Assembly: GCF_965363235.1 (NCBI RefSeq)
Contig: NC_134848.1
Location: 59,296,181 to 59,360,180, forward strand
Source: Mytilus galloprovincialis
Lineage: Eukaryota; Mollusca; Bivalvia; Mytilida; Mytilidae
Direction: 5' to 3'
DNA length: 64,000 nucleotides
Shown here: piece after piece, positions 16,501-45,999 of the stretch
Position numbering within the stretch: position 1 is the stretch's first letter
Layout: each line of letters begins with the position of its first letter
Program-made: the position numbers and the translations under genes
Notes under the pieces: model-generated
What the model saw: only the letters and a program-made list of their open reading frames with translations
Told to the model about the DNA's origin: nothing
Database searches by the model: none

Positions 16501-16736
16501 TAGTTATCAAAGGTACCAGGATTATAATTTAGTACGCCAGACGCGCGTTTCGTCTACATAAGACTCATCAGTGACGCTCATATCAAAATATTTATAAAGC
16601 CAAATAAGTAGGAAGTTGAAGAGCATTGAGGGTCCAAAATTCCAAAAAGTTGTGCCAAATACGGCTAAGGTAATCTATTCCTGGGATAAGAAAATCCTTA
16701 GTTTTCCAATAAATTCAAAGTTTTGTAAACAGGAAA
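16501..16736 (-). mobile_element. Hammerhead-ribozyme retroelement, insertion only in tandem copy 2
   Basis: A 236-bp insert flanked by the direct repeat GTTAA (16496-16500 and 16737-16741). The matching place in copy 1 (about 8191) has a single, uninterrupted GTTAA, so this is a textbook filled/empty pair and the insertion postdates the duplication. Reading on the minus strand, the element runs from TTTCCTGTTTACAAAAC to CCTGGTACCTTTGATAACTA and contains an intact-looking hammerhead motif. It has no coding capacity; mobilisation must be in trans. Confidence 0.85.
16534..16577 (-). ncRNA. Hammerhead ribozyme (subfamily A)
   Basis: Minus strand: stem I GCGUCA pairs with UGGCGU; core CUGAUGA; stem II GUC/GAC with a 7-nt loop; core GAAA; stem III CGCGCG (self-complementary); then UC as the cleavage position. 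All invariant core bases of the hammerhead family are present. The stem III arm has no room for a loop, so strong activity probably needs two copies to pair. Confidence 0.85.
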
Positions 16737-17614
16737 GTTAAGATACTTTGATAGCTGTGAAAAAGAAAGATTTTTTTTAAAATATCTAACTAAAGCTGAA
16801 CTACTATTTAACAACAATGCTTGATTTATATTTCTTAGGTAAACGTATCATAGAAAGAATTTTTTAATATCTGCAACTGGTCATTCCTCTCCTCGAGGGT
16901 AGCTGCAGCTGCCCTGTTGGGTCCAACTCGTAGGATGTCTTCTCTTCCTCTTCTAGAGTCCTTTCCCCTTGCACTCCTGGTGTTGCCACGTCCCCTTGCT
17001 CTAACCATCGCCCATATTGCATTCACAGGTGTATATTCTTCACTGTCACTCTCATGTCTATCACCAAGCTCAAGTGGAGACCTTGAGCTATTTGAGTTAT
17101 GAAATGGTGCACATATAAAGATTAGAAATTAAATAAACAAACAATCCTCGAGAAACAAGCCCGTGTAATTCTGCTTCTTAGATACCTATTTGGTTAAAAT
17201 AAAACAAGAAATTCCCTCAAAATAGTTTTGTGGAAAAAAACGTAATTTTATTTGAAATATATAGCCAACTGATCATGATCACTGCATATTTGTAAGATGA
17301 AATATTTTTTGAATTAATTAAAAGTTGCATGACTATACTATCTACAGTGTAACATCTATTGTTCAATGATAAATATTATTCATTTCACAATACGTTAAAA
17401 TCTCAAAATGTTACCACCCCCTTCCCCCCAGGGTGACTGGAAACGAAATTTGGTCACTTGGTCTTCTCCCGACCGGCAGTAAACGCTTGCCGAAGTGGGG
17501 CGTTCGTTTTGCTATGCGGGATGTATTATGTTCGCAGACACGTCCGGTCAGAATGTGGACGTGAAATCCGATGTATCGGGGGAAAGAGAGTGCCACGCTC
17601 TTTGCACGTTAAAG

Positions 17615-17884
17615 TTTGATTGTTTTAACATCAGTTGAGTAATATTAAATAGCGTTTCTGTAGCTGATACTAAAGCTGCGGCAGATTCCCTAAGAAGTAC
17701 CTCACTGTTTACATCAGGTTGGTAACAGACAGTTCAGTATCAGAATACAAAATTGCAAATGGTTGTTCTATCCATATTGTGTTGGTCTACACGTAATTGT
17801 AAGATTGCAACGCATCTATAATTTTAATGATTTGAATGCTTTACCTCCCGGACGATAAGCTACCAACAATCAATCAATTATCTG
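17615..17884. repeat. Stub of a third 8.55-kb unit
   Basis: The first ~270 bp of the unit recur here and then stop at a run of C. The third copy is therefore cut off, either by a real breakpoint or by an assembly join at the homopolymer. Confidence 0.85.
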
Positions 17885-17908
17885 CCCCCCCCCCCCCCCC
17901 CCCCCCCC
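17885..17908 (+). repeat. Poly-C run (24 C)
   Basis: An uninterrupted run of C at the exact point where the third tandem unit ends. It may be biological or mark a weak assembly join. Confidence 0.9.
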
Positions 17909-20498: not shown

Positions 20499-21086
20499 AT
20501 GATGGGAAAACACCACCCTAATTATGAACATTGGAATTGTAGCATGTGCAAAGGGAAGTTTATAAGACGAGAATACTTATACAGACATTTGCAGAAAATT
20601 CATGGTTTGGATAAAGTGAAATCCATAAGAATGGCAATGGAATCTTCAAGAGGTGACAAGAATCAACAACCTTCCTATTATGAAGATATCAGGGAGGATG
20701 ATATCATTTTCGATCTTATCAAAGAGCTGGATTTCAGTGACACATCACAAACATGCGATGTAGATAAAATAATACCAGACGAAAACAACAATGAATCGCA
20801 AGATGATAATGTGGGGCAACAATTAGAGGTATCTGATAGTCAATCATCCATCGAAGAACCACCAGCTGAGCATACGGAGACGGACGTCAATGGGCAGGAA
20901 AACAACATTGAGGCCAGTAGTGTAATAATCGTAAGTGACGACGAGTTGAGTGAAGACACTACTATTGGACGATCAGGAACATATGTTCAGAAAATTATAA
21001 TATCAACGAGGAAAAGAACACACTGTGCGAGTGGAGAGGAAACAGGGAGCACATATGTAGATAATGACTATTTTGCAAAACATTGA
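20499..21086 (+). CDS. Single C2H2 zinc-finger protein with acidic tail
   Basis: A 195-residue intronless frame if begun at the ATGATG pair (20499); the frame stays open upstream to 20379, but a TATA-like box argues for the internal start. Near the N terminus is one classical finger, C-S-M-C then H and H in YLYRHLQKIHG (C-x2-C-x12-H-x4-H). The rest is acidic and Ser/Gln/Asp-rich (DISEDDII-like stretches, VSDDELSED) without a second finger, as in a DNA- or protein-binding regulator. The last codons (about DYFAKH) and the stop lie in a hammerhead-type repeat that begins near 21068, so the original C terminus may have been replaced. Could be a working small gene or a fragment; not recognised as a named gene. 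Confidence 0.6.
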   Translation: MMGKHHPNYEHWNCSMCKGKFIRREYLYRHLQKIHGLDKVKSIRMAMESSRGDKNQQPSYYEDIREDDIIFDLIKELDFSDTSQTCDVDKIIPDENNNESQDDNVGQQLEVSDSQSSIEEPPAEHTETDVNGQENNIEASSVIIVSDDELSEDTTIGRSGTYVQKIIISTRKRTHCASGEETGSTYVDNDYFAKH

Positions 21087-21382
21087 ATTTTTCAAAAAAC
21101 TAAGGATTTTCATATCCCAGGCATAGATTACCTTAGCCGTATTTGGCACAACTTTTTGGAATTTTGGATCCTCAATGCTTTCCAACGTTGAGCTTGTTTG
21201 GCTTTATAAATATTTTGATATGAGCGTCACTGATGAGTCTTATGTAGACAAAACGCGCGTCTGGCGTACTAAATTATAATCCTGGTACCTTTGATAACCA
21301 CTGGGTCGATGCCACTGCTGGTGGACGTTTCGTCCCCAGGGTATCACAAGCACTGTGGTCAACACTGCGGTGTTGACATGAA
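21068..21382 (+). mobile_element. Hammerhead-type repeat, subfamily A, long form
   Basis: From TTTTGCAAAACATTGAA it matches the 16.5-kb insertion (minus strand there) through the ribozyme region to CCTGGTACCTTTGATAAC. It then continues into a second conserved block, CCACTGGGTCGATGCC...GGACGTTTCGTCCCC...GGGTATCAC, which the tandem units at 21.8-22.5 kb also have. The long form therefore has two modules, a hammerhead half and a hairpin half. Confidence 0.75.
21224..21267 (+). ncRNA. Hammerhead motif, subfamily A, core-mutated
   Basis: GCGTCA, CTGATGA, GTC-loop-GAC, then AAAA where the catalytic core needs GAAA, CGCGCG, TC and TGGCGT. All stems are intact, but the G of the GAAA box is A, so this copy should not cleave. 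Confidence 0.75.
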
Positions 21383-21810
21383 TATCAATAATGTGGTCAT
21401 TTTTTAAATTTCCTGTTTCTCTGGGACGAGTTGTTCCGAATTTCTTATAACATCGACCTGATTTGTCGACCGACGTTGATAACGTTGATTGCCGGTTCTT
21501 CTTTCATACAATACATTAAACAACAAGGTCAGTGATAAACGGAATAATATAATAAACGAATGAAATTTAAATGTGTATAACGTAACGGTACCCAAATTGC
21601 ACCTATTTAGCAAAACTAGCAGCGAAAATCTTACAAGATTTTCTAGAGACTAAACAATTTGTTTTTTTATGATTTGATACTAAGCACATCTTTCAACATA
21701 GGTAAAACTATTTAGATATGCACAAAACGTTCACAGTATCAACAGATGAAGTATTTACTGAAAAAGCAAAATGTACTGATCATCTTTTTAAAATGAGCAA
21801 ATACAATATG
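21383..21810. other. Spacer before the ribozyme array
   Basis: No supported gene. A short minus-strand frame (21404-21613) has no recognisable features. Confidence 0.4.
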
Positions 21811-21901
21811 TTACACGGATTTGGCTATACTTTATGGAACTTTTGGATTATAGCTCTACATCTTTTATATAAGCTTTGGATTTTACATATCTTGGCCACG
21901 A

Positions 21902-21945
21902 GCATCACTGAAGAGACATTATTTGTCGAAATGCGCATCTGGTGC
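21902..21945 (+). ncRNA. Hammerhead ribozyme (subfamily B), unit 1
   Basis: Stem I GCAUCA/UGGUGC; core CUGAAGA; stem II GACA-UUAUU-UGUC; core GAAA; stem III UGCGCA (self-complementary); UC cleavage site. Compared with subfamily A, stem I and stem III bases change in pairs, so the fold is conserved rather than the sequence. Confidence 0.88.
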
Positions 21946-22250
21946 AGAAAAATTGGTACCGTTAATGTTATTACTACCACTGGGTCGATGCCTCTGCTGG
22001 TGGACTGTTAGTCCCCGAGGGTATCACCAGCCCAGTAGCCAGTACTCCGGTACTGGCATGAAAATACGGATTTTTTGTGTTATTAAGTTTGCTGTTACAA
22101 AATGTTAAAAATTATTATAAATTAAGGAATGTATCTCCCTCATGCAAAGCTCTGATTCCTTTCACGGATTTGGCTATACTTTTTGGAACTTTTGGATTAT
22201 AGCTCTACATCTTTTATATAAGCTTTGGATTTTACATATTTTGGCCACGA

Positions 22251-22294
22251 GCATCACTGAAGAGACATTATTTGTCGAAATGCGCATCTGGTGC
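22251..22294 (+). ncRNA. Hammerhead ribozyme (subfamily B), unit 2
   Basis: Identical motif 349 bp after the first, with the full core and all three stems. Confidence 0.88.
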
Positions 22295-22569
22295 AGAAAA
22301 ATTGGTACCGTTAATGTTATTACTACCACTGGGTCGATGCCTCTGCTGGTGGACTGTTAGTCCCCGAGGGTATCACCAGCCCAGTAGCCAGTACTCCGGT
22401 ACTGGCATGAAAATACGGATATTTTGTGTTATTAAGTTTGCTGTTACAAAATGTTAAAAATTATTATAAATTAAGGAATGTATCTCCCTCATGCAAAGCT
22501 CTGATTCCTTTCACGGATTTGGTTATACTTTTTGGAACTTTTGGATTATAGCTCTACATCTTTTATATA

Positions 22570-22882
22570 AGTAGTGTAGTATCACTGAACACCCAAAGCC
22601 CCTTGAGTGTGGGTGCATAATTATAACCCCCACCCCTTTTCAAATGGGGCCATAAATATGAGGGGGTTATAAAATATTGGGGTCAAAGTTTTTTTCTTTT
22701 TAAAAATAAGAGGGGGTTATAAATATTTTGAGGTGAAAGTGTAAGCACTTTATAAATGTTCACTTTTAAACACTCTAATAATACACTGATGCAATGCGAA
22801 CCTTCACACCCTATTTTGAATAACTGTCACTCCTTATAGATTTACACTTAAAAGCATTAGCTACATAAACAGATGTTTTAAC
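22570..22882 (+). repeat. Polinton left terminal inverted repeat
   Basis: About 313 bp, matching 43144-43455 inverted with essentially one homopolymer-length difference. Contains two copies of the AGGGGGTTATAAA motif. Confidence 0.93.
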
Positions 22883-23389
22883 AAACAAAAAGAGATAACT
22901 CTATCTGGTTGCAATGTCAAACGTACTTTCGAAAGAAAGGAGAACTGTAAGTAAATGTTAAAAGAATCCAACATATCTTTCAATTGATGCATGCTTCGGT
23001 TATTTTTAATGATGTACCTTTTTTTATTATTTGAAGGTTCAATTTTTACCAGGAGAAGAAATAAAGAAAACACATCACTTGATAGCTTGGTCCTTTGCAT
23101 ACCGACAAGCAAGGAAAGGTCATTGGATACAGTTTGCAATTGATCACCATCGTTTTAAAAGACGTATTCACACGACTGAGACGATAATTACACCTATTTT
23201 GTCTCTAGAACATAGATTGAAAATATACAACTTAATTACATTTAATATACACCATACACACTATAACCCCAAAAATTTAGAATAATAGTTTTTACCATCA
23301 TTGTGACACTCCCAGTATTTAAATAGTATAAAATCACTGTTAAAAGTTGTTCACGACATCAGTTTTAGTGAAACAAAGTTACTGACAAC
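22883..23389. other. Polinton left non-coding arm
   Basis: AT-rich leader between the terminal repeat and the first gene. An open frame at 23031-23285 has no recognisable features. TATAAAAT at 23327-23334, about 60 bp before the CARD start codon, is a plausible promoter element. Confidence 0.5.
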
Positions 23390-23650
23390 ATGCAGAAAGA
23401 ACACAAAGATTCTCTTCAGCGTAATTACGTGAAATTGGTTAAAGAAACGCCGGTGGATGTTGTAACAGACCATCTATACCAGGCTGGAATACTTACTGAC
23501 GAATTGAAGGAAGATATTTTACAACAGTCGAATTCGTATTCAAAAACTAGACAGCTGATATCTACTATTCAGAGAAGAGGTGCACAAGCATTCGAAAGTT
23601 TTTGCTCTGCTCTTACTTTAGAGGGAAATCAAATCTGGTTAATCTTTTGA
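23390..23650 (+). CDS. CARD-domain protein encoded in the Polinton left arm
   Basis: The 86-residue frame reads as a caspase recruitment domain over nearly its whole length. It has an amphipathic N-terminal helix (LQRNYVKLVKETP), then DHLYQAGILTDELKEDI, then KTRQLISTIQRRGAQAFESF. The ILT and RRG/RGxxAF signatures match adaptors such as RAIDD, where CARDs recruit caspases or inflammasome partners by CARD-CARD contact in the cytosol. Such a domain is not part of the core Polinton gene set, so capture from a host and a role in blunting cell death are inferred. A TATA-like box lies ~60 bp upstream, and the frame overlaps the next one. Confidence 0.72.
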   Translation: MQKEHKDSLQRNYVKLVKETPVDVVTDHLYQAGILTDELKEDILQQSNSYSKTRQLISTIQRRGAQAFESFCSALTLEGNQIWLIF

Positions 23651-24207
23651 AAAGTTCAATAACTGATACTTCAGGAGTGAGCAAAAATCGATGTATGTTA
23701 CCTATAGGTGGAGACATATTTGTTGTTCCTAACGAATGGTGTGATAAATTGTTGATCCATATTCGTAAATACGAGAAAAACTCCACAGGTGCTTATATTC
23801 CAACCAAAAAAGGAATAGCTTTGAATTTACCACAATGGGTGCTTTTGGAAATGTATGCTAGTGACATAGATGATGCTATAGGTCAGATGATTGATGATGT
23901 TGACGGAAATCCCGAAATGACATTTCATCTTGGTAAAGGTGTGTACGTTACTGTGAATAGAATATATCCAACCGTAGACGTGCGACAGCGTTGGATGATT
24001 CCCAATTCAAGCCAAGTTGTTCCAACAAAGAAAGGTATTTCTTTAACATACGATAAGTGGGAAGCTCTTAAAGGAACATTTACTGAAGTAAGACAGGTTG
24101 TACCAGAACTGGAAAACATTGTTCCTTGTATTTTAGGAGAAGATCACCAAGTACAAGAGAGCATGTTAAACTGTTCAAGTTGTAATCCATTCGGGGAAAT
24201 TTTGTAA
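23602..24207 (+). CDS. PC4-like protein with two tandem domains (Polinton)
   Basis: Two related segments each end in the PC4 signature. The first has LLIHIRKYEKN...YIPTKKGIALNLPQW; the second has VDVRQRWM...VVPTKKGISLTYDKWEALK. PC4/p15 proteins bind single-stranded DNA and act as transcription co-activators; the K-K-G-I-x-L-x3-x-W block forms part of the binding face. The first ~25 codons overlap the CARD frame and are not PC4-like, so the true start is uncertain. The neighbour downstream also has a PC4-like tail. A role in element transcription or replication is inferred. Confidence 0.6.
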   Translation: MLCSYFRGKSNLVNLLKSSITDTSGVSKNRCMLPIGGDIFVVPNEWCDKLLIHIRKYEKNSTGAYIPTKKGIALNLPQWVLLEMYASDIDDAIGQMIDDVDGNPEMTFHLGKGVYVTVNRIYPTVDVRQRWMIPNSSQVVPTKKGISLTYDKWEALKGTFTEVRQVVPELENIVPCILGEDHQVQESMLNCSSCNPFGEIL

Positions 24208-24277
24208 ACAGCTGTGTATAAAAGCATTGACTTCGTGTTATATTGTCATTAGGTCTTTTACTCGTTCGGGAAACAAC

Positions 24278-24802
24278 ATGATGTCAAGAACAGTATCATG
24301 TGAGACTGGATTAGTTGATAAAACTGAGATGCCACCTATAACGTTTTCTATGGGAGGTAGAATACCATCTCAGTCAAGTGTGGTTTCAAATATATCGTCA
24401 ATATATGAAAAATACACCATGCATATAAACATTATAAAATGGACTGGAGTCGTTGTTCTACTGGCATTAATGTCTACAAGTTTAGCTTTGACCAGTGGAA
24501 TGATTAAGAATAGTGCGCATTATAACTATACAGACTGTAAAAAGATCAAAGGAGCAGAAGATTATCAGAGCAGTGGAATCAACAACATATCATGTGGATA
24601 TCTAAAACAGTTTGATTTACCAGAACAATATAAAGTGACTATCTGCACCCACCAAAAACAAGTTTGGATAGGTATTCGACATTTCATCGGAAATATAACA
24701 AGTGGCATATTTTTAAACAAAAGACAATGGAATTACCTACTGAGAATAAGATCAACTATTAACCAAGCCTTGAAAAGAGCCGACAATGCGAACAGATCAT
24801 AG
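24278..24802 (+). CDS. Single-pass membrane protein with PC4-like C-terminal half (Polinton)
   Basis: Starting at the ATGATG pair (24278), just downstream of a TATAAAAG box at 24218, gives 174 residues. A hydrophobic segment (WTGVVVLLALMSTSLALTSG, near residues 54-73) would span a membrane. The part after it has two N-glycosylation-type sites and Cys residues, then a region resembling the PC4 tail of its neighbour (IGIRHFIGN...FLNKRQWNYLL). A membrane anchor on a PC4-like fold is odd; it could be a virion or cell-surface protein that reused the fold. Function unknown. Confidence 0.5.
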   Translation: MMSRTVSCETGLVDKTEMPPITFSMGGRIPSQSSVVSNISSIYEKYTMHINIIKWTGVVVLLALMSTSLALTSGMIKNSAHYNYTDCKKIKGAEDYQSSGINNISCGYLKQFDLPEQYKVTICTHQKQVWIGIRHFIGNITSGIFLNKRQWNYLLRIRSTINQALKRADNANRS

Positions 24803-25127
24803 ACAACAGCAATTATTTATACATATATTAGTTTTTGGTTTAAAAAATAAACTTATCTAGAATATGTATCAAGTCTTTTTTGTTTTTTTTTTTTGTTTTG
24901 TTTTTTTTGTTTTACTGTGTATAAACACAAGAAATCAAAATCATTCTGAACGGTTTTCATGCATATAGCAGTAAATATCATAATGCCGCATTGGAAGTAA
25001 TTCTCAATAATGGCTAAAAAACGAAAAATGACTCACACACACACACACACACAATCCGCAATCAATTAACATTTGAAGAACAAATGTGTTTAAATATCCA
25101 ACTTACTTTAAAATATCTTTAGTCAGA
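24803..25127. other. Polinton spacer with T/G-rich and CA repeats
   Basis: Polyadenylation-type AATAAA near 24846, then a T-rich tract (24874-24915) and a (CA)n microsatellite at 25032-25052. No gene. Confidence 0.6.
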
Positions 25128-26293
25128 ATGAGTTCATTAAACTATGAGGACTACTTACACAAAATATGGTATGATCTAAAACATCCGGCATCATTTACAG
25201 GTCCTGATAAACTGTATCGCATAGTAAAAAAAGATGGAAAATTTAAAATAGGAAGACATAAAATAAGGCAATGGTTACAGGATCAGGACTCGTACAGTTT
25301 ATCCAGAAATACAGTGCGTAAGTTCAGAAGAAGTAGATATGTTGTCAACACGATAGACAGTTTATGGGAAATAGATTTGGCTCAATTTGATAGCTTTCAG
25401 AGTGAAAATTTAGGTGTGAAGTATTTGTTGTTTGTTATTGACGTCTTCTCAAAACATTTGTGGATAGAAAGCCTGAAAGATAAAACACATAAAAGTGTGC
25501 TGAAAGCTTTAAAAAAAATTCTATCTGGAAGCCGAAGACCAACCTCTATCCGTTCTGATTTAGGTAAAGAGTTTGTCAATAAGTATGTACGCGGTTATCT
25601 TTCAAAAGAAGGGATAAACACATACTATTCTCAAAATGAAACCAAGTCAGCTGTTGTGGAGCGAAGTATCAGAAGTATTAAAACAATCATGTACACATAT
25701 TTCAGACACAAACAAACGTATAAATACATTGACGTTATACAGGATATGGTGGCGAGTTATAATAAAAGACCGCATCGTTCACTAGGTGGATATACCCCGT
25801 CCGAAGTGAACAAACAAAACGCAGATGAAGTTCGACTGAGTGCATATTTTGCCCGAAACACTAGCAAAAAAAAAATGAAAAGAAGAGAACTAAAGATGAG
25901 CAAACAATGTCATCAAAGGGAAAAAAGAAACCAGACAACAGCTTCAAATACAGAGTTAATGATCTGGTCAGGATTACATTTAAACGTCATCCGTTTCAGA
26001 GAGGGTATCAACAGAAATGGACAGAAGAGCTCTTTAAAATTCGACGTCGATATTACCGAGATCGTTTGCCCACTTACTTACTCAAAGATTTGTTAAATGA
26101 AAACATACTTGGTTCCTTCCATCATCCAGAACTTCAGAAGGTTAGAAAAGACGAGAAAAACACGATATGGAAAATCGAAAAAATATTAAGAAAGCGGAAA
26201 CAGAATGGGATTAATCAAGCTTTGGTACGTTGGCTTGGCTACCCCAAAAAATTTGACGCTTGGTTACCGATGTCTGATATTCAAAACGAATAA
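25086..26293 (+). pseudogene. Polinton integrase (retroviral-type DDE with chromodomain), broken
   Basis: The core has the Polinton integrase N-terminal motif (FTGPDKLY...WLQDQDSYSLSR), then a catalytic triad of D97 (WEIDLAQF), D158 (IRSDLGKEF) and E192 (AVVERS), counted from the upstream ATG. A chromodomain-like part follows (TIWKIEKILRKRK...VRWLGYP...AWLPMSDI), usual for Polinton integrases. The enzyme inserts the element into DNA with a 6-bp target duplication. As it stands the gene is broken, by about one break; otherwise it is well preserved, in keeping with a recent insertion. Confidence 0.85.
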
Positions 26294-26332
26294 GTAGTTT
26301 CAAATCTTTGTTTTTCTTCATTCGGTGCCAAG

Positions 26333-26797
26333 ATGAGTATACGCATGGTTCTTAAATCAACAGATGGAAATCTTCTTTTTGAAAACAACACAGCATGTAA
26401 CTTTACAATACAACTGGATAGACAAATAGATCTAACAGGATATTGGATGGTGGGGTTGACAGAAATAAGTATCACGTATAAAGATACTTCGAAGCACATA
26501 GAGGATATCTACGTTTATTCAAACATCTGTGAAGAGAGTTTTGTGGGGTCCTCAGAGAAACCCCTTCTTCGAAAAGTTTACATAAAGAAAGAAACAACGG
26601 AGCAATATACTGTAAACAAACAGAAACACTATAAAACAAACTTAATATTTGGCGTCCCCTATTTTGTCCCTGTACGTCTAGGGCGACTGAACCAAATCCA
26701 TATCTATATAACTGATGAAATTGGACAACCGAGCTCATTCATCAACAAGAACTGCTGCGTGACACTTCATTTAAAAAAGTATCCGTTTCTGCAGTAA
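26333..26797 (+). CDS. Polinton minor capsid (penton-type, single jelly-roll) protein
   Basis: A 154-residue protein placed directly upstream of the basic protein and major capsid genes. The beta-rich pattern ACNFTIQLDRQIDLTGYWMVGLTEI, then IYVYSNIC, matches the start of Polinton penton-like proteins, which are predicted to form capsid vertices. Length suits a single jelly-roll. It ends in TAATG, sharing the A with the next start codon. Family call by pattern and position; structure not verified. Confidence 0.65.
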   Translation: MSIRMVLKSTDGNLLFENNTACNFTIQLDRQIDLTGYWMVGLTEISITYKDTSKHIEDIYVYSNICEESFVGSSEKPLLRKVYIKKETTEQYTVNKQKHYKTNLIFGVPYFVPVRLGRLNQIHIYITDEIGQPSSFINKNCCVTLHLKKYPFLQ

Positions 26798-29053: not shown

Positions 29054-29132
29054 TAAAATATAGAGTCATTTTTCACAGTATTTAATTGTCTCTCCTCAAA
29101 CCTATCCTCGCACACATACTTTAGACACCGTC

Positions 29133-29801: not shown

Positions 29802-29845
29802 ATAAAAGTAGAGAACACTACCACATGACATCATTGCGTTAGAAA

Positions 29846-33700: not shown

Positions 33701-35913
33701 GTTGCGGTACTACCTTTGAACAGTTTCATTCGAAACCCACAAGTGTTAGCACAAGGTCCGCCTTTGAAAACTTTCTTATCACGTTGAGAGCAAAGCGGAC
33801 AACGAACACCACAATACGAACATTTAGTATTGTGTAGTATTGGCTTATCTTTACAGAGGTCACAAGCCGTCTGCATACAAATAAAGTTTACTGTGTGTTC
33901 GCTAGAACCACACCAAGATTTGCTACATGTCTGACACAGTTTACATTTTTCACATTTTTTACCTTTGCCCGTACAATTTTCACACCTTGTATTTGTAGGT
34001 TGGTAGCCGTTTTCGCACTGTAATAATGTATCTTGCTTCGTTTCGGTGTCGAAAAAAATCATAACATTATCGGTAAGTTCCTTGGTAATTCTTCTCTGAT
34101 AACACAGGTGTTCTCCCGTGTAATATTCGTTGCAGCAAGGACATTTCCATTCCCCACATTGGTGAATGGCGGGAGAACGATCGTCCCAAACTAGTATTTT
34201 TTTGCATATTTTACATTGATATCGTTTGTCGCATTCCGAATGTAATAATCCTCCTTTTCGTGTTTGTTTTTTCTCTACGTGTTTTCGAAAGCATTCCAGT
34301 GATCTGCAAATCCTGTTGCATGTACGACAAGACATTATACTGGACGTGTTTATACAGTCCGAGCTGCAGCAGACAGTACATGTTGTTTCACACGAATGCT
34401 GGTCTCTATTGTTGTACGGTTTTAAGCATGTACTACAGAAATAATTGCAGGAAAAGAAGCCCGTGAGACTAACAATAGCTGTAAAATGTTGGAAATCATC
34501 TTGTTCAACCAGATAGAGAAACACTTTTTTGCGCAGTGAATCGTTTTCCCCGACTCGAATGAATTTATTCCCTAATTTAGCTGAAATAACAAGAATTTGT
34601 ATGTTTAACAGTCTTTCAAAAAGCTCTATTTCATTGATATTACACGGTTTTTCTGTACTCACTCCAACCAATTCACAAAGACGTCTAGAAAATAAAGTAC
34701 ATTCTTTCCTCCCCTTTTCTACAACGTGTTTATAATACCAATGCGGGTGACATTTGTGCTTCAAAACTTTATCTGGCATGGAACTAGAGTCTCCCTCTGT
34801 AAGAAGACGCCATTCTACGGGGGAAACTAGTCGACATGTTTTCAGAAAACACACGACTATAGCCATCGGCATGCACATAGTCGTACTGGGTATGTTCACA
34901 ATAGAACGTTTTCTCATTAGACTGTTGTTTTCCCCCGTCAATTTGGTGATACGGAGTCGCCCGCCTCCCGATGGAATATCTATTCGACCCACTGTAATCG
35001 TACAACTGTCGTCAACAGGTAGTTCTTCGTTACTTTGTAACACCTTGCTTATTTCGTCCATCACTATTGATGAGTCCATTTTGTTCAGTTCACGTAGAGA
35101 GACTACAATCGGATCAGTCAAGCCGTTGTGTTCTATGATCACACGAGCGAGACTATTGGCATCTGAATCTTGACGTACTGTATCCAGGATATCGTCGAAC
35201 AAACCATGTAGGTCTTCTGTTATGTCTGACAATTTCTTGTCGTGCAATTGACTGGTAAATTTGGCCTGAAAAGTCTTGTCAATGGCTCCAGTTTTAGCGT
35301 ATGTTCGCTCTTTTATTTGGCTAAATGTGTATGCAGGTTCACTCTCAATGCCCGCCCCAAACTGATGTGTAGAGATTGCTTGATTTTGGGATGATACACG
35401 AGATTTTTTGTACATGGGCACATCAGTGTCGGTGTTTCTTGTTGTTGAGTATGAACAATCGGTGTTTTTTTCATTCCGACTTCTTTTTATCGTTTTCCGT
35501 GTAAAGGAATTTCCTGAATTAGTATCCATATGGTTAGAACTAGAATGTGGATAATCAAATAGGCCCATGTTGAATTCCGTTATTATATCGTGCTCAAGTG
35601 CGTGTAATTCGTACTTTACTTGTGTACTAGACACCTCGTCGCATATTGAACACTGAAAATGCGATGGGTTTGCTTGCCTCCTTAAATGGTTTAATCTGGA
35701 AATTACGTAAGGGTCATCATTCATTCCATAGGCGTGAGCAAACGTCAATAATTGATCAATCGAAGTAAAACAATTTATGATATCCTCTAAGACTGGGCAG
35801 TCGTTCATCTGAAAATAGGATACAGGTTTTAAACCTAGATAGACATTTGAAGTTGAACCATCATCATAACCTACCTTCTTCATTGGCACAAAAACACAAG
35901 TTTGGAGAAACAT
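30760..35913 (-). CDS. Polinton protein-primed DNA polymerase B
   Basis: Two long open stretches on the minus strand. The upstream one (35913-32677, ~1,078 codons) starts with a C2H2-like finger (FQCSICDE...YELHALEH), contains Cys-rich zinc-like clusters and carries the exonuclease motifs FFDTETK and LSHNGSGYDNYFLLEWL. The downstream one (to 30760) has polymerase motifs A (FTSLYPW), B (LCLNSFWGKFGQR) and C (YYDTDSCVY). The ~330-bp gap between them is GC-rich with intron-like edges, and introns are known in some Polinton polymerase genes. The protein would replicate the element from its terminal repeats with a protein primer. No break is evident in the catalytic regions. Confidence 0.9.
32440..32676. 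repeat. ACGCGT-rich tract inside the polymerase gene
   Basis: Iterated ACGCGTAA-type motifs and a GGCGGCGGC run lie in the non-coding gap of the polymerase gene. They are sharply more CpG-rich than anything else in the element. Confidence 0.6.
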
Positions 35914-37865
35914 CTGTTATTATGACGATAAGGGACTCAGTGCTGGCTTCCAGATTTTTACCAATAACCATTCATTTTAAGATTCAGGAATGAAGCAATG
36001 CATGTTTTGTTAGTGTGGGTGTGTATGTGTATATGTTTTTTTTTGGTGAGAGTTGCTTACGTTGGAATCATGTTATTGTTTTGATAAAGCTGTAAGATTT
36101 TTTTTCATTGGTATTTAATGTCTCACTGCAATACCCAGATCCAGTCTTCTGTCTTGTATGATAAGATGTTCGTAAACAATTCTGTAGAACTACTGTTTCA
36201 TTAGCCCTACCCCCCCACTTATCAATATTTTCTTTTCGTCAAATCAGCAAACAAACCAGCTGTTTCCACCAGGTAAAGAAGAAAAATCTAATTTAAAAAG
36301 CTATTGCTCATTTACAAATAAAGAAGAAATAATCACAATTTGTACATTCAAAAATATGTTTATTACATATAACAAATACAAAAAATACATTACAAAGACT
36401 CAAAATGAAAATTTATCAGTACAATCATGTCTAATTAAGAAAAAAAAATGAAGAAAATAACTAAGTCGTGTAAAGATAAATATATATGTTAGAATATTTT
36501 AATAAGAAATAAGCGAGAGAGAAAAAAAACATGGGTTATGCTTTTTATATTTATTTATTGTTAAAAAAATAAGTAATCAAAATTGAATAAGTAAAAAAAA
36601 ATTCAGATTTTTACATTACTAAAAGAATCACCCCCCCCCCCCCCCCCCCCCCCCCCGTGAAAAACAAAGTTATCTCTCCCTCCCCACATGTTTGACACAT
36701 TAATACTTTCCTTTAACCATTTAAATAAAACATATAATACAACAAATACAACTACAATAACATTTATAAAACACAAAAAGTACACCTGGTACTGAATCAT
36801 TCATAACAAAGCATAACATCATATAATACTAACTAAACTAATCATAAAAAAATAGGTACACCCAGATACTGTTTTATTCATACATTAAAAAAAAAGCTTC
36901 TAATCATGAAATAAAATAAACATTTACCACAAAATAAAAACAACATTATTACACACAGATAAAATGTTTATTCAAGGTCACATTATGACAGAGTAAAATT
37001 GTTTATATTATTTTCTGTAAAATTTATTTGAAGGACTTTTTTTCAATGGATATCAATGTTTACTTTCTAAAAAAAAAAACAGTAAAAAAGTGGTTCAATT
37101 GTATCAATATTATTTAAACCCGTGTGAAAATATTTGGTAAAATAATAAAAAAAAATCCAGTTGTTTTCTACTTAAATATTTGAAATTAATAATAATCAAA
37201 TTAAAAACATTAAAGGATGTTCTATACATTGAAATTGTAATTTGCTCAGTGTTCAAGACAGTACAATATGTTGATCAATAGTTACATGTCGGATCCTTTC
37301 ACTTGGTGGATAGCTCCCTCATTAGCAATCATACCACATCTAATCTTTATAAATGTAACCCTAAACAAATGTTTTAACTTAAAACCACACACACACACAC
37401 ACACACAAATATGTACATACAAAAAACTATTCTACACTATATTGAAATTATATCTGTGGTTGTAATAACAATTTTGATTGAAGATATAAAAAAGATATAA
37501 AGAAAAGTGTATATACATACATTTAACCCTTATATTTATACATATTTAAAATGTTTTTATTATGTTTTATTTTATCAAAATTTGAATACCAATATATTTG
37601 AAAATATTAATAGATACTGTACCAAGGGAAGTAATCCCAAAATGATAGTCTCCCCCTTTTTAAAATTATTACTTTTATACAAGGGGGGCATGATTGTGAT
37701 TAAAAAAAATTATAGGTATTGCATGCAATGACCCAGTCATTAGTATAATAATATGAGAAATCCTTTATTTAATTGCATTTCACAAAAGAGTTTGTTAAAA
37801 AAAACCCACAGATATAATTTAAATTTTAAGTCTAAATATATTTACATTACATTTAACATAAAAAA
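35914..37865. other. Polinton right arm, non-coding
   Basis: About 2 kb of AT-rich sequence with a poly-C run (36632-36656) and a (CA)n microsatellite (37385-37407). A short piece at 37300-37335 (GATAGCTCCCTCATTAGCAATCATACCACAT) resembles a tail seen again at 38240-38275. No gene supported; the open frame across the poly-C is spurious. Confidence 0.55.
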
Positions 37866-39768
37866 TCACAAGTTTGGTGTGGAGGTCCACCTCCTCATGA
37901 TGGGTCTGTGGGGTGTTCTCAGTGAGACCCTTCTCCTGGCCACCTTTTGCCTCCTCTTGACCACTCTGATCACCAGAATGGTTATCACAGTGAGTGTAAT
38001 TCCAGCCACTGCACTGATGAGTTTATCTGGAAAAAAATATTTATGATAAGAGTAACTCGATAGTTTTATGTGTTAAAAATAAAAACACTGTGTATGATTT
38101 TCAACTTTTTTCTCATGAACGTTTTACTCTCTAATGTGTAATAAGTTTTTTTTTGTTCTGATATTTGATTACGAATGCTCCGTGTTGAAGGCTGTACCTT
38201 GACCTATTACGGTTTACTTTTATAAAAATGGTAACTTGATGGAGAGTTGTCTCATTGGCACTCATACCACATTTTCATATACATTTGATATATCTATATA
38301 AAGTTAGAGGCATATATATGTCTCTGATAAAAGACTTACTTCTAGATCAGAGACTTTTACAGATGTGCATTAATTCATTTAATAACAGGAGGGCACTGTA
38401 AACATGTAAAACTTGAAGTAGTCTTGTCTTCAACATCCAATGCATTTGTAGTAACACAAGTAACCCTCATCTCTAAAGTCTACATCTTTCTTATTTTTTA
38501 TAATAAAGTCTCACATATAACAAAGGATTTTCCTACATGATTATAAAATTGTAGAGGGAAATATATATTTTTTTATAACATGGTTGTAGATGAGGGGATG
38601 TATATGTTCTTGCTTTTCACATTTTTTTATTCTTTCTTTATTATGAACATACCAAGGATGGTCTCTTTCTCCTCACATGGAGGTGGGGTTGCCACAGACC
38701 ACCTGAAGGCAAATGTGGCCTTTTCTTTTGCTTCCTCCCCAGTCTCTGTGCTTTCTTCTGTGTTCTTCATAATAATCTCCTCTTCTCTCTCCACACCTGT
38801 CTTCTTTCCCAGAACTGTTTTAAGAAAAGTGTAAGAATTAACTTTACATTCCACTTGTTTTTACGAACCGGATGTTTCTAATAAAATCAAGGAGCCGTTT
38901 CAAAACAATTTGTATGTATATAAAGGCTTGTATCATATTCAATTTATAAATACAGCTTCTTTATTATGAATCTAGCTGGTATCATATTCAAATCATAGGT
39001 GTTTTTTTTATGTAGCTTGTTTGTATAGTTGCAATCAGGAATAAAAATTAAAATTTAAATATAAAAATCCCTTACCACTCCTCTAAACACTTCGGAAGTT
39101 TATCGGAAAGGGGTCATCTCAAAATTCATTTAGATGTTGATATAAGCTGTCATCACTTCTTGGATGTTGTTAAAACTTTTAATTGTTTACCTACGACTGG
39201 GACATTTTCTATCATCGTTTTTATGACAAATGAAATTTATTAGTTGGATACACTCGTTCGTAAAACGATTTTTGTTGGTAAATTTGACAATAAATTAAAA
39301 TAAATATTTTTGTATAATTTTCTGGGCATACGTTTAAGTATTTAGTTGTAATTTAACAGTGGTTTCGAAGATACTTTGAGAAATAAATATACTTTTGTGT
39401 CTATATGCAATAAACAGAAAGGGAAAAAAGGGGGGGGGGAATGATTAAAGACATCAAAAGATACAATATATATATTTAGACAGAGATTCATAATAAATCT
39501 TACCTTCAACTTTGCACCCATTGATGCTTATGCCAGCCCCTGACCCAACCCGTACTACTGTTGATGGGGACTGGCATATCACAATGGTGGTGGGGTCGTA
39601 CACTGTGATGCACCTCACACCCCTTCCACATCTCAGCATGGTTTCGGACACTTTATTGCAGACTCGAAAGCCACGGACACATGATTTCTCTTCCTTTGAC
39701 AATACGAAGGTGGCATTAATATACATCAATAATAGTCCCAATGACAAAATTACGTGACGTCCTGCCAT
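37866..39768 (-). CDS. Three-exon gene for a secreted-type single-pass membrane protein (Polinton cargo)
   Basis: Exons 39768-39504, 38814-38653 and 38026-37866 have consensus GT/AG borders, both introns in phase 1, and stay in frame for 195 codons. Exon 1 gives a signal peptide (MAGRHVILSLGLLLMYINAT) and a small Cys-rich ectodomain with six Cys. Exon 2 encodes a Glu/Lys-rich stalk (VEREEEIIM, ESTETGEEAKEKA). Exon 3 encodes a transmembrane helix (LISAVAGITLTVITILVI) and a basic tail (KRRQKVARRR). Splicing, phase-1 introns and domain order are host-receptor-like and foreign to core Polinton genes. It could be a captured receptor or decoy, or a glycoprotein of the element. I do not recognise the family. 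Confidence 0.65.
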
Positions 39769-40594
39769 TTTGATTTCGCGGTCAATAAGTATTTCGCGGT
39801 CAATATGCGATAACGAGGGAGGACGGATACACGATGCATGCATTTTTTACTATTTATTTAATAAGTATTTTTTATTATTATATGATTTTAAAAATAAAAA
39901 GTGAATAAATGAATATTTTTACGGAAAAACTATTCGAATCTAACTTTTACACATTTTTTTTTATCTTGTTTTTTCCCCCCAAAAAAATGACCGCGAATGA
40001 CCCATTTACGCAATATAAATTAGGTCGCCCTAATTTTGGTTAAAAGTTAATGGATTGAATTTCCTAAAGTACAATACATGTGCTAGATAGATTAATAAAA
40101 TTTAGGTTAATCATGAAACTCTGTTAATCACTATTTTGATTGATGTTTCGTGATGGGGAAAAAAAAACGAGAGGAATTTAATTAGACTGTATAAAGGACA
40201 AGGTTGGCCTTAACTTGATATAAAAACAACTGAAAAAAAGTAAGAATTTCAAACTACATTCGACTCACCTTAAAGCTAAAACTTGATTCCGAGAAAGGTA
40301 TGTGCATTAATTGATAACTTTACTTTTTTTTTGTCTTAAAATAAGGGTTTCAATTTTTTCTTTTCTTTTTTTTAAATCAATATTTCGATACAGTTTTAGA
40401 CAAAATAGTTTTGATTCCAATCAATTATAAGAATATGTGAAACAAAAAGATTTTTTGTGGTTAAACAACTTTGACTTGCTTAATTTAGAATAAATATTAT
40501 TTCTAATAAATTTCTGAACTTCAAATGTATATGTATATGTGTGCGTATGTGTCAATTTACGAAAGTTCTGATGTTTTATACTTTTTTACAATAG
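39769..40594. promoter_or_regulatory. Divergent promoter region between the two cargo genes
   Basis: The membrane-protein gene leaves leftward and the coiled-coil gene rightward from this interval. TATAAAAA at 40220-40227, followed by a donor-like GAAAG/GTATGT at 40297/40298 and an acceptor at 40591-40594, suggests a short 5' untranslated exon (about 40250-40297) for the rightward gene. Confidence 0.45.
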
Positions 40595-42590
40595 AAAAGA
40601 AAAATGGTAAATTTTTTACCAGACGAGGATTCGGTATACAACTGGACCGAGTGAGTACATATTTGATTTATAAACATTCAAAGTTCATTCTAAAATCGTT
40701 ACCATCGATTTTATTCTTTTTTTGATTTTTTTCATAAACATTCATGGTTTTTTTTTCAATTTAAGTTCTTTTACATAATCAATTTGAATAATGGAAGTTT
40801 GATATCTTTTCAATTACCTATAACACATTTTAGTTTATGTACAAGAAAACATTAATGATTTATCTCTTTTTTAGTTCGCAGACTGATTTATTTTTACAAG
40901 ACTTTCCATGGAGTGGGGGAGATGCGAGAGGGGAGGAGAGTAGCCCCATTCATTTTGGCACGGTATTTAAAGAAGAACCAATATCGTAAGTTTCCTTGTC
41001 TCTTCTTGTATTTTTGTAGGAATATTGTACCTAACTAAATGGAAATTAAGAATTTGGGACACGAATGTATCGACAATAACATTATTTTTTTTGTAACTCT
41101 GAGACATTTCAATATAATTAAACACATGCTATTTCGGAGTAATGGATAAAAATGTCAGTAACTGCAGGTATAAATATATATATGCATTTTCTATCTGTTA
41201 TGTGAAACTACAACATTATATCTTCACAAAAATGGGAATGTGCTGTTAACATTTATATCCTACTTTTTTAGTTCATTTTCATTCCAAGAATAAACATAAA
41301 AATTAACCATTCGTTGATATTCAGAACTTGACGATTAATTTTGTAGTGGTGTAAAGAGATTCTATGAAGTGGAATCTTCAAGAGAGAGTTCACTTTTATC
41401 ACCAGAAAAAAAGAAATCACCTAGGTAAGTTTTAGATATGTGAATTTTCGGTATATGATGTACAAATTTGCAGTTACATCCAGTCAGAATAGGGGCGATA
41501 AATATGATGTCTCGTGTAAAGAAAGTGTCACGCTTATTGCACGTTAAGAAACCTTGCAACAGCTCTTCCAGGGGATCCGTAGGTGACCTGTTGCAAGGCT
41601 AAATTTCTGTCCCTATGCAATATACTCTCCGATTTCCCGTGGTAATCTACATTTCTCCGACCTTGATCTCCCGCGGACCACCTTATTACAAAACCTATCT
41701 ATTGTGTTTATTGTTAATTTATTTTTGACCTAATGAACATGAAATCTTTTCCAACAACCAATGAATCAATTTTGTATATATTGTATATGATTTTTTTTAT
41801 TCAGCAAAAAAGGGGTAAAACGACGGTTGATAACAGAGGATAAAGAAAATGATCAGAAAATGAAAAGGTAAGTTGCTTTTTTATTGTTTTTTTCCATTTG
41901 TTTACAAACCAAAAATCAAGATTTAATGTCATAACGTAGTATATTTATTAAACATATGAAACCGTAACACGAGATATGACCTTAATCATTATTAAAAGTA
42001 AAAAATGGGGTAGGATACTTTAAGATTAAGCGCTGAACAAAAAAAAAACAAAACTCTCTGGCTGATAATCAATGATTATCTTTGAACGTTGTTAGATTGT
42101 AACAGTGAGAAAAATAGAGAAAGAAGCATTAAAAGGAAAAGATATTGTAACCATCAACGATACAGATACACACAACTACATTGTTTATAGGAAAAAAATA
42201 TCGAGTTATCTCTCTTTATACATAGTCTCAATTATATATAAAAAGCATTTTTTTTATAAAGGTGTTATTTCTTCAATATGCGTTTTCTGTCTTAAATTAA
42301 TAGACAATGATATAACTGTTTTTGCTGGATCAGTGTTTGTTTTATATATGTCTGCTTTGTTCTTTTTATTTTTATAATATTTGTTTTTCAGAGAACAACT
42401 GGATAGACATTCAGATAGTATAAGACCAATGTGTTGGGGGGAAAAATCCTCCCAGATAAAACAATTAACAGAAGTGATAGGGAAAATGGAGGAAAATCAT
42501 TCTACTACTATTCACATCTTAAAGGGTATGATTACCCAGTTGGAGAAAGAAAAGCGAAGAAGGCAGAACATTATTACGCATACATTATGA
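40595..42590 (+). CDS. Five-exon gene for a nuclear-type coiled-coil protein (Polinton cargo)
   Basis: Coding begins at 40604. Exons 40595-40650, 40875-40985, 41347-41424, 41805-41867 and 42392-42590 are bounded by good GT/AG sites. All four introns are phase 2, and the frame holds for 165 codons. An acidic-aromatic start (LPDEDSVYNW, LFLQDFPWSG) resembles activation domains. Next come a Ser/Lys segment (SPEKKKSP), a basic KKGVKRRL patch fit for a nuclear signal, and a C-terminal heptad-like helix (IKQLTEVIGKMEENHSTTIH, ITQLEKEKRRR) that should dimerise. AATAAA overlaps the stop. The five consistent junctions make a real gene likely; family not recognised. Confidence 0.68.
41470..41560. repeat. 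Mussel-type repeat fragment in a cargo-gene intron
   Basis: GTCAGAATAGGGGCGATAAATATGATGTCTCG...AAGTGTCACGC...TTGCACGTTAAG is a diverged copy of the dispersed repeat at 8960-9067 and 17510-17614. It lies within intron 3 of the coiled-coil gene, inside the Polinton. Confidence 0.65.
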
Positions 42591-42866
42591 ATAAAGTATT
42601 TGTACTTGTATTTGTATTGGTTTTTTTTTAATAACACATTCAGTACTAGAAATGTATTGCTCAAAGATTACATTACGTTAATTTCAATAAGTCATTTGCT
42701 CATACTGGAAAATATCGAACATAAACAACAATTAGACACATTACAAAATCATACTTACATTATAGTTTAGTCGCTACACGATTTTATTTGTTTTCTTAAA
42801 TAGAACCCACAACTATTTATACTTCTTAGTATATAAGGATGGGCCAACTTCAGGTGTTGAATCATT

Positions 42867-43143
42867 TAAAAGGAGTGGGTTACACAGATGTTTAAACACT
42901 TGTAGTATATTTAAGGAGTGGTTGCTTAGGTGTTAAAAGACACCTGTTTACATGATTTAAACGTGTGCTTTTACACTGGTTTCTGACAGTGTATTTAGGA
43001 GTGGTTTGCTAGGGTTTTAGGACATCTGTTTTAACTTGTGCTTCTTGAAAAAAATACAATGCGTTCCTTTAAAGGATTGGGTTTGTCATATGCTTAGACA
43101 CCTGTTTCTGATAAAACGTATATAGGAGGGGGTTCACACAGGT
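42867..43143 (+). repeat. Subterminal degenerate tandem repeats of the Polinton right end
   Basis: Units of about 45-85 bp, each opening with (A)AGGAGTGG and containing ACACCTGTTT or ACATCTGTTT, recur about five times and run into the right terminal repeat. The left end lacks them, so the two ends differ just inside the terminal repeats. Confidence 0.65.
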
Positions 43144-43455
43144 GTTAAAACATCTGTTTATGTAGCTAATGCTTTTAAGTGTAAATCTATAAGGAGTGAC
43201 AGTTATTCAAAATAGAGTGTGAAGGTTCGCATTGCATCAGTGTATTATTAGAGTGTTTAAAAGTGAACATTTATAAAGTGCTTACACTTTCACCTCAAAA
43301 TATTTATAACCCCCTCTTATTTTTAAAAAGAAAAAACTTTGACCCCAATATTTTATAACCCCCTCATATTTATGGCCCCATTTGAAAAGGGGTGGGGGTT
43401 ATAATTATGCACCCACACTCAAGGGGCTTTGGGTGTTCAGTGATACTACACTACT
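43144..43455 (-). repeat. Polinton right terminal inverted repeat
   Basis: Inverted match of 22570-22882, near-identical. Followed directly by the second TATATA of the target duplication. Confidence 0.93.
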
Positions 43456-43566
43456 TATATAAGCTTTGGATTTTACATATTTTGGCCACGAGCATCACTG
43501 AAGAGACATTATTTGTCGAAATGCGCATCTGGTGCAGAAAAATTGGTACCGTTAATGTTATTACAA
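43456..43566 (+). repeat. Remainder of the interrupted 349-bp ribozyme unit
   Basis: Resumes with TATATAAGCTTTGGATTTTAC and carries a hammerhead motif, then ends at GTTATTACAAG, short of the hairpin module. The array's third unit is thus incomplete on its right side, independent of the Polinton. Confidence 0.85.
43492..43535 (+). ncRNA. Hammerhead ribozyme (subfamily B), unit 3
   Basis: Same intact motif as units 1 and 2 (GCATCA, CTGAAGA, GACA/TGTC, GAAA, TGCGCA, TC, TGGTGC). It is separated from its own unit start by the 20.9-kb Polinton. Confidence 0.87.
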
Positions 43567-44519
43567 GTATCCATTTAAAAAATAATGAAGAGTAAGCATG
43601 GACTAATATCCAATTGTTCAAAATATTTAAAGAAATTAAACAAAAGCTCTGTTATTAGACTTTTGACTATGTGAATTATAGCATGGAAGCAATTTGGGTA
43701 CTCCTCATTTCAGAATCATTGATGGTTTGGAGGTCAGTTTAGACCAATTTTTCTATGATTCCATATGGAATAAAAATCAAATTGGTTTACCTTTATAATA
43801 AAGAAGGATAGGGCTACAAAATAAACACAGAATGGACATTTTTGTTTTCATCATAAAAAAAACGTAGATGAAAAAACTGTCAAAATAGGTGCAATTTGGG
43901 TACCGTCACGTTACATTTAATTGAAATCAATTAAATAATAACAATCTTCTTAAACTGAAAGATTGACAATACTTTCTTTTATTCGGACTTGATATCATCA
44001 GAATCAAACTAACTTTGGTTTTGTGCAAGTTAAAATAGCCTACCATATAATTCATTTTCTCTATCACAGAGATTTGGTGTTCATGAATAATTTTCCTGTG
44101 CATTTTGCCATTTTGGAATTATAAGCAACTTGTAATTACAGGTTTTTGGCGATGAAATATGTCCTACGATTGTTCTTTGACATCTTAGCCAAAAGTACAG
44201 GGAATAATAAACTACGTACGGGTTTCAATTGAGCACTATTTCTTATGTGCAACTACAAATATTTAGGTCGTTCGACGATCATTTAAACGGATAGTACCTA
44301 CGATTTTCACTAATTTATGACTCAAAATACAGAATTTTAAACAAATATAAAGAATAATTTCATAAGGTTTAAAGAAGATTTTTACAGATTTAACCACCGA
44401 ACTGAATTATTATCTATAGACAATATATTGCTGTAAAGACCGCCTTATTCCTACCACGATAATTGACCTGTGTTTGGATATCCTAATTGTGCCTGCAAAA
44501 CTTGTAAATGTAAGTAAAC
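43567..44519. other. Intergenic, upstream of the three-exon gene
   Basis: No gene or repeat recognised. The last few hundred bases should hold the promoter of the gene starting at 44520, but no clear TATA box is seen. Confidence 0.4.
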
Positions 44520-45990
44520 ATGTCGGAAAGAGGAAATTTAGCGGGAAGAAGAAAACGTACCCTCACAGATTCTGATGGAAAGAGGAACATAGAAGATGCA
44601 CAGGCCACTTATTACAAGTCGAAAATCCGCATTGGAAACGAGATTGCTAATTGGAATGACCTGACCGGTTAAGTCTGGATAGTCACACACAAGTTGCTAA
44701 ACTGCTGTTGGACAGGTTTGTGTGTTGTTTACATTTCTACCTCAGGCATAGATTACCTTAGCTGGATATGGCAAAACTTTTAAGAATTTTGGTTCTCATT
44801 GCTCTTTAACTTCGTACTTTATTTAGCCTTTTTAACTTTTTTGGATTCGAGCGTCACTGATGAGTCTTTTGTAGACGAAACGCGCGTCTGGCGTTTATAC
44901 AAAATTTAGTCCTGGTATCTATGATGAGTTTATTTACATTTATAGCTTCAAAATTCTTGTTCCAAAACAGACCTTTTTTCATATGTCAAAGAAGCACACT
45001 GCTTCTTATTTGTTTATATATTGCCAAATGATGTTTGTTTACTTAATTCTGGACGAGCAAATGTATGTAAAAGCGATAATTATAAGTGTAATAGAATGCG
45101 TTCATTCACGAGGGCCCACAAAGGGGAAATCTTAACTTACTGTTATTAAAAGTGTATTCGGCATTTTATCTGAAATTTCAATTGGTTTTAAGTTAAATTA
45201 TCAATCATAGGTATGCAATTCAAGACAGAAATATCAGTCCTAGAAAGAAATCAAACTTTGAAGACCATGCAATGTTCAAAACACCCAACACACACTGCTC
45301 CATCCAGTACCAGCCTAAATAGTGCAACACCAGATCCCAAAGCCATGACTCCTAGTAAGAAATCAAAACATGAAGAATTTAAAACTCAATCATATGCTGC
45401 TCAATCCAGTCCAAGTATGAATTATGCAACACCGGTTCTAAAAGTATTGACTTCGACACCAGGTCCTCTTGTTGACAATATTCAGCCCATGTCTGATATG
45501 TCCAGAATGTCATCTTCTGAGAGTGAAAGTCAAGCTGAGTATGTATTTGCTAACATTATGCCGAAGTTAACCACGAGCATCACTGAAGAGACATGTATTG
45601 TCGAAATGCACATCTGGTGCAAGAAAATTGGTACCGTTAATTTTATTAACAATTTATTTTATTTTTTATTTTATACATACATTTAAATTGTAATATGATG
45701 CTGATTGGAAAATTGAACATAAAAAGTAAATAAAGGTGATTCATTTATATAATAACTCATACAATTTGCCTAGACTGAATGTGGAATTCATAAATACGTC
45801 ATGGTTTATTTTCAGCGATTCTGATGCACATATCTCAGGAATTGAAGAATTACCAAGTCGTAGACGGTCACATATGAAAGAATCCAGCAATTTCATAAAT
45901 CCTTTTGAGCAAGTTTATTTTGAGAGAAGGACAATGGAAGTGTATACACCTAGAGCTATATCTAAGAACAAAATTGCAAGAAAATGTTAA
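44520..45990 (+). CDS. Three-exon host gene, 216-residue Ser/Thr/Lys-rich protein, function unknown
   Basis: Exons 44520-44667, 45211-45538 and 45816-45990 join in frame (introns phase 1 and 2). Borders are GTTAAG/ATAG for intron 1 (weak donor) and GTATGT/TTCAG for intron 2. The N terminus is basic (MSERGNLAGRRKRTLTDSDG) and followed by KIRIGNEIANWNDL, a motif like those after THAP or in related regulators. The middle is Ser/Thr/Pro-rich with Lys (ATPDPKAMTPSKKSKHEEF). The end is SDAHISGIEELPSRRRSHMK...FEQVYFERRTMEVYTPR. Composition suggests a nuclear protein. Each intron contains a hammerhead-type repeat in sense orientation. Not a family I can name. Confidence 0.6.
44740..44945 (+). mobile_element. 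Hammerhead-type repeat, subfamily A, in intron 1
   Basis: From CCTCAGGCATAGATTACCTTAGC to TTTAGTCCTGGTATCTATGATGAG; matches the body of the 16.5-kb insertion with moderate divergence. The tail is a variant (ACAAAATTTAGTCCTGGTATC) also found alone at 63433-63475. Confidence 0.75.
44851..44894 (+). ncRNA. Hammerhead ribozyme (subfamily A), intronic
   Basis: GCGTCA, CTGATGA, GTC-TTTTGTA-GAC, GAAA, CGCGCG, TC, TGGCGT. Complete core, with only the stem II loop different from the 16.5-kb copy. In sense orientation within intron 1. Confidence 0.85.
45555..45660 (+). mobile_element. Hammerhead-type repeat, subfamily B, in intron 2
   Basis: A short fragment holding the ribozyme half (CCACGAGCATCACTGAAGAG to GGTACCGTTAAT), beginning ~15 bp after the exon 2 donor. 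The open frame reading through it from exon 2 is accidental. Confidence 0.75.
45577..45620 (+). ncRNA. Hammerhead motif (subfamily B), stem III variant
   Basis: GCATCA, CTGAAGA, GACA-TGTAT-TGTC, GAAA, TGCACA, TC, TGGTGC. Core and stems I and II are intact; stem III is no longer self-complementary, so this copy may be weak or need a different partner. Confidence 0.78.
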
Positions 45991-45999
45991 ATCTGGGAA

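Follow-up and report, generated by a model that had tools for sequence, protein, structure and literature searches.

A 64,000-nucleotide stretch of the Mytilus galloprovincialis genome (contig NC_134848.1, positions 59,296,181 to 59,360,180; hereafter the window) contains seven copies of a 44-nt motif that, judged by their letters, are real hammerhead ribozyme motifs. The repeats that carry them very probably belong to the mussel family of non-LTR (non-long-terminal-repeat) retrozymes, which are non-coding retroelements. This family is already known and is not new, because a matching mussel family has been described (PMC7229834, Cervera & de la Pena 2020; this paper and PMC7761336 are cited here from excerpts). 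The ribozyme finding thus confirms from raw sequence a mussel family already shown to be active, and the anatomy of the insertions could matter more: four to five of them suggest, by their ends and flanks, a fixed 3′ end and a target preference. The motifs, folds, compensated pairs, unit lengths, target site duplications (TSDs) and insertion ends given below are from the window; self-cutting, circular RNA and ligation are from PMC7229834. The insertions and their parts are:

16501..16736, minus strand: A16, A-type copy of 236 bp; hammerhead at 16534-16577, predicted to cut after base 16540 (sense)
16496-16500 and 16737-16741: target duplication of A16, GTTAA (TTAAC in element sense)
21073..21418, plus strand: A21, A-type copy of about one unit (346 bp, limits approximate); hammerhead at 21224-21267, with G12 changed to A
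21811..22569, plus strand: left part of the B array; hammerheads at 21902-21945 and 22251-22294, 349-nt period
21811-21815: left target copy of the B array, TTACA
43456..43565, plus strand: right part of the B array; third hammerhead at 43492-43535; ends in GTTA and then TTACA (43561-43565)
44737..44932, plus strand: A44, A-type copy of 196 bp; hammerhead at 44851-44894
44728-44736 and 44933-44941: target duplication of A44, TTTACATTT
45572..45645, plus strand: B45, B-type copy of 74 bp; hammerhead at 45577-45620 with 31 nt after the cut and little else
45567-45571 and 45646-45650: target duplication of B45, TTAAC
63433..63472, plus strand: A63, A-type remnant without ribozyme; 3′ end of a unit only, starting 9 nt after the cut

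All seven motifs were found at the positions originally predicted (starting at 16534, 21224, 21902, 22251, 43492, 44851 and 45577), with the strand of the first corrected to minus. Each can be drawn as a type I hammerhead with the core CUGANGA...GAAA...UH and three helices, helix I being open; the pairs form in 7/7 copies and the core is intact in 6/7. The core therefore reads as had been claimed in six copies, which carry GAAA, and departs from the claim at 21224, which reads AAAA. Since G12, the base replaced there, is the catalytic base of the hammerhead, the 21224 copy is probably dead and is predicted to be inactive. A degenerate hammerhead pattern allowing up to three mismatches matched exactly seven sites in the window and none in 100 dinucleotide shuffles. 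A covariance model trained on these motifs recovered the same seven at 70-77 bits, as follows from its construction, and nothing else convincing in the window (next match 9 bits, E 1.8). The motifs at 21902, 22251 and 43492 are identical in every letter, so that there are five distinct sequences among the seven. In a permissive Rfam search, Hammerhead_1 (RF00163, type I) was the best family for all five. Scores obtained in short stretches were 33.0 bits for 16534, 32.5 for 44851, 31.2 for 22251, 28.3 for 45577 and 26.5 for 21224, with E-values of 1e-6 to 8e-4 that refer to stretches of 81 to 2501 bases.

The stem sequences of the two subfamilies, A and B, read as the original prediction gave them, and the differences between them are indeed compensated in stems I and III; stem II, which had gone unremarked, is also compensated, at two pairs. 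In an alignment of the seven motifs (five distinct rows, 12 pairs, 60 cells), standard base pairs occupy 60/60 cells. Two-sided changes occur in 4/12 pairs (two of them in stem II, the others in stems I and III, one each), and a fifth pair is changed on one side. None of 500 shuffles matched the observed percentage paired, the number of two-sided cells or the covariation score.

Several results weigh against the hammerhead assignment. The original prediction had named an Rfam search among its checks and the lack of a match above threshold as part of the grounds for refuting it, and taken literally this is the outcome: no motif in the window reached the gathering score of 34 bits. Scaling to the whole window weakens the RF00163 E-values, to ∼0.03 for 21224. 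The four B copies were unlisted in longer stretches covering them, the two distinct B sequences matching RF00163 only in 81-base stretches. The count of two-sided pairs was equalled by 119/500 shuffles and that of further pair types by 432/500, and all compensated changes lie on the single A/B split, so that the covariation amounts to one comparison with four compensations. As calculated by ViennaRNA, whose values here and below are secondary-structure energies only, for none of the 44-nt motifs taken alone was the monomer hammerhead (-3.7 to -5.8 kcal/mol) the best fold. Hammerhead identity is nevertheless retained, because the near-threshold scores, the covariation and the published mussel work together outweigh the sub-threshold Rfam result.

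Stem III had been described as self-complementary and loopless, from which pairing between neighboring copies was predicted. The palindrome is present in 6/7 motifs; 45577 carries AUGCACAU, which is not a palindrome. Pairing between copies is possible, but the claim was too strong, because a tetraloop closed by 2 bp can form from the 8 nt, and a single cloned mussel repeat self-cuts at ∼0.1/min (PMC7229834). Dimer pairing as a requirement was rejected. When two copies were folded by ViennaRNA, the double hammerhead was the best fold for A16, A21 and the three motifs of the B array (B1, B2 and B3; -27 to -30), and other folds were preferred for A44 and B45. With the folds divided in this way, monomer and dimer routes are both open. 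Most invertebrate hammerhead motifs are reported to cut as monomers (PMC7761336).

The retrozyme interpretation is supported by the motifs, the compensated stems, the unit lengths and the published mussel family. Hammerheads are spaced by 349 nt, twice in the B array, and the other loci are single copies; the B-array unit has a GC content of 38.7%. Animal non-LTR retrozymes are recognized by tandem units of ∼150-450 bp with GC under 50% and by target duplications of more than 4 bp when present, and both features were found, with duplications of 5, 5, 5 and 9 bp in 4/6 loci (A16, B45, the B array and A44). The excerpts of PMC7229834 describe ∼5000 type I hammerheads in M. galloprovincialis, in two similar families with repeats usually of ∼350-390 bp, which are called type I though most of the loop I-loop II tertiary nucleotides are missing. 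They also report abundant circular RNAs (circRNAs) in this species by northern blot, and ligation of ∼30% of a mussel monomer by RtcB. The window copies share with that family the mussel host, the type I fold, the division into two families and the low GC. Their repeats of 349 nt (B) and ∼346 nt (A) compare with the published ∼350-390 bp, and we see no essential difference, the comparison being by description and not against clones MN642551-MN642576.

The satellite retrozymes of newt and axolotl also have type I hammerheads in tandem units of ∼330-350 nt (per PMC7229834). Helix III of the amphibian motifs is weaker, however, and dimers are needed for efficient cutting, whereas helix III of the window motifs consists of 2 bp with a tetraloop (a palindrome in 6/7), and for the mussel family cutting of a single repeat was measured (PMC7229834). 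Plant LTR retrozymes have in common with the animal ones a ribozyme-made circRNA as transposition intermediate, but are ∼700 bp long, with type III hammerheads in LTRs, a primer binding site, a polypurine tract and a 4-bp TSD (PMC7229834). The window copies, in contrast, have 349-nt units and TSDs of 5-9 bp, and a plant-type (type III) hammerhead was the best match for none of the five distinct motifs, type I being best for all. In the searched collections, the hammerhead pattern had no matches in viral_contigs or genome_contigs, and neither a looser A pattern nor a structured-domain pattern had any in viral_contigs; a shorter domain pattern had two matches in genome_contigs, both bacterial metagenome-assembled genomes by title, which were judged from the titles to be chance. 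Two retrozyme sequence words had no occurrence in the searched literature. Translation of part of the B unit gave a match to one public protein, P0124.

The window motifs combine a type I fold with a helix III that is short and palindromic, which would suit the minimal hammerheads that lie in the pseudo-LTRs of Penelope-like elements, and such elements are present in mussels (PMC7229834). The 349-nt period does not fit them, and helix III, present here, is usually absent from the minimal variants (PMC7761336). Moreover, the eight open reading frames (ORFs) scanned, of 14 with at least 150 aa in the window, gave no match to a reverse transcriptase or to GIY-YIG. That the motifs belong to such elements is therefore extremely improbable.

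The seven motifs do not represent seven independent copies. That reading was rejected because a Polinton (described below) splits the array that holds 21902, 22251 and 43492; across the gap the hammerhead spacing is again 349, and these three motifs form one array of 2.44 units, which reduces the seven motifs to five insertion loci. A63 is a sixth; it belongs to the subfamily of A44, and the two agree in sequence as far as 48 nt beyond the cut. For two loci the empty site was found. The site of A16 is empty at ∼8187-8191, in the paralogous copy of a tandem duplication of 8.3-8.6 kb, so that the limits of A16 are exact. For B45, two public proteins from other contigs (P0121 and P0122) run straight through without the insert, their reading MPKLTIYF... 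corresponding to the window flanks joined, which gives TTAAC. The duplication that contains A16 is large and direct, covering 1-17900 with a spacing of ∼8.3-8.6 kb and blocks mostly 96-99% identical; A16 is in its second copy alone.

These empty sites bear on the view that recombination has passively spread the repeats as satellite or tandem-repeat DNA, in which the hammerhead is a relic. The tandem arrangement of the B array and the dead core in 21224 would agree with such a history. The two single copies with empty sites, A16 and B45, do not: they have 5-bp target duplications, are 5′-truncated and are dispersed. The compensated stems and the circRNA published for the mussel family (PMC7229834) also count against it. 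As the whole story, passive spread is rejected on the empty sites, and we regard it as very unlikely.

The four TSD-flanked loci resemble one another both in their targets and in their 3′ ends. The duplicated targets resemble TT(W)ACA, a motif whose chance expectation is 1.5e-7, a naive figure computed after the fact. Past the predicted cut, the copies extend for 39 nt in A16, 31 in B45, 31 in the B array and 44 in A44, and A63, which has no TSD, extends for 48. Five of the six loci thus end at a common position on the unit, which lies 31-48 nt beyond the cut and immediately precedes a structured domain, and a sequence alignment without A63 likewise places the four TSD-flanked 3′ ends at about one place. 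Were the ends distributed uniformly, five of six would fall within 17 nt with a probability of 0.0002, the best five of six having been picked post hoc; without A63, the probability of four of five within 13 nt is 0.001, also after the fact. The 5′ ends, on the other hand, are scattered between positions 197 nt before and 9 nt after the cut. On these few copies, a common 3′ end with scattered 5′ ends suggests that an uncut or circular RNA is copied from a single fixed priming site. Within a limited reading of the literature on mussel and animal retrozymes no report of a fixed 3′ end was found, and the excerpts of PMC7229834 mention neither a common 3′ end nor a target consensus.

Copying from a linear monomer cut by the hammerhead, instead of from a circle or an uncut RNA, would end copies at the cut. 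In 0/6 loci does the copy end there; all 4/4 TSD-flanked loci keep the cut site inside, with a further 31-44 nt following the cut, and three hammerheads lie in the B array. These ends are better explained if copying begins at a fixed start on a circle or on uncut RNA. In favor of linear templates, A63 starts 9 nt after the cut, and in P0124, encoded on a public contig, the retrozyme sequence picks up again with the first or second nucleotide that follows the cut, as seen at the protein level only; a copy with its 5′ end at the cut is as expected if some templates are linear. Overall, linear templates appear an unlikely source of the window copies.

The domain that follows the common 3′ end is the remaining feature of the unit:

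22325..22417, plus strand: structured domain of the B unit, immediately downstream of the common 3′ end; further copies at 21976-22068 and, A-type, at 21297-21385

The A and B versions are 90% identical over 52 nt, and between these, its only two distinct sequences, four pairs are compensated on both sides. This count was equalled by 40/500 shuffles, and the outer stem is broken at 2/6 pairs in A21. We infer that the domain could serve as the docking site for a borrowed reverse transcriptase.

These features can be assembled into a scheme for retrozyme movement. Transcripts of tandem copies would cut themselves after GUC or AUC by means of the type I hammerhead, and a host ligase would circularize the 349-nt (B) or ∼346-nt (A) pieces. 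A reverse transcriptase from another element would then turn the circle into new genomic copies, inserted where the target resembles TT(W)ACA. Whether circular or uncut, the RNA would be copied from a single fixed position immediately 5′ of the structured domain; more than one lap would leave tandem arrays, and early stops would give 5′-truncated single copies. In its general form, the proposal is that animal retrozymes integrate by target-primed copying from a fixed place on circular RNA, directly 5′ of a conserved domain that would dock the reverse transcriptase, and that UUAC or UUA at this place may pair with the end of the target, which terminates in TGT(W)AA. We offer this tentatively, giving it somewhat less than even credence.

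A number of observations count against this account of insertion. Empty sites are at hand for A16 and B45 only, and for the B array and A44 the TSDs were assigned from words common to both flanks; around the B array other such words, of 6-7 nt, are available. A63 has no clear target duplication. One locus of the six, A21, ends elsewhere on the unit: its ends appear to abut (∼10 nt, by eye against A16), the downstream structured domain is present and no clear target duplication was seen. The absence of a reverse transcriptase among the eight ORFs scanned also belongs here. Animal retrozymes are described as lacking a conserved motif that points to the mobilizing machinery (PMC7761336). The common 3′ end, the target consensus and the covarying domain would be such pointers, and, if the proposal is true, the insertion ends would help to identify the partner retrotransposon.

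The element that divides the B array is a Polinton:

22570..43455: Polinton/Maverick of 20,886 bp, with terminal inverted repeats of ∼0.3 kb starting AG, in the third unit of the B array
22564-22569 and 43456-43461: target duplication of the Polinton, TATATA

Its inverted ends are over 99% alike, so that the insertion is probably young. ORFs of the Polinton match an integrase core and an adenovirus-type protease, and DNA polymerase B is matched twice, by distinct ORFs at 30760-32445 and 32677-35916. An ATPase/helicase family was matched weakly, and a match to a double jelly-roll capsid protein fell below the curated cut-off. We take the set of integrase, protease, polymerase B and capsid to be Polinton anatomy. 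The capsid-like ORF is 99% identical to the M. edulis protein P0011 over 71% of its length, and the named top matches are all from Mytilus, which supports a mussel host.

A44 and B45 apparently lie in sense in introns of one putative Mytilus gene (44500-46000; splice sites by eye), B45 starting 33 nt after an inferred donor GT at 45539. Conceptual exons of this region match P0123 from M. coruscus (83% over 33% of the query). A self-cutting RNA within an intron could affect splicing. Between two oppositely oriented retrozyme copies lie a THAP-domain ORF on the minus strand and an ORF with a zinc-finger-like stretch, seen by eye and without a Pfam match (18448-18942 and 20340-21086).

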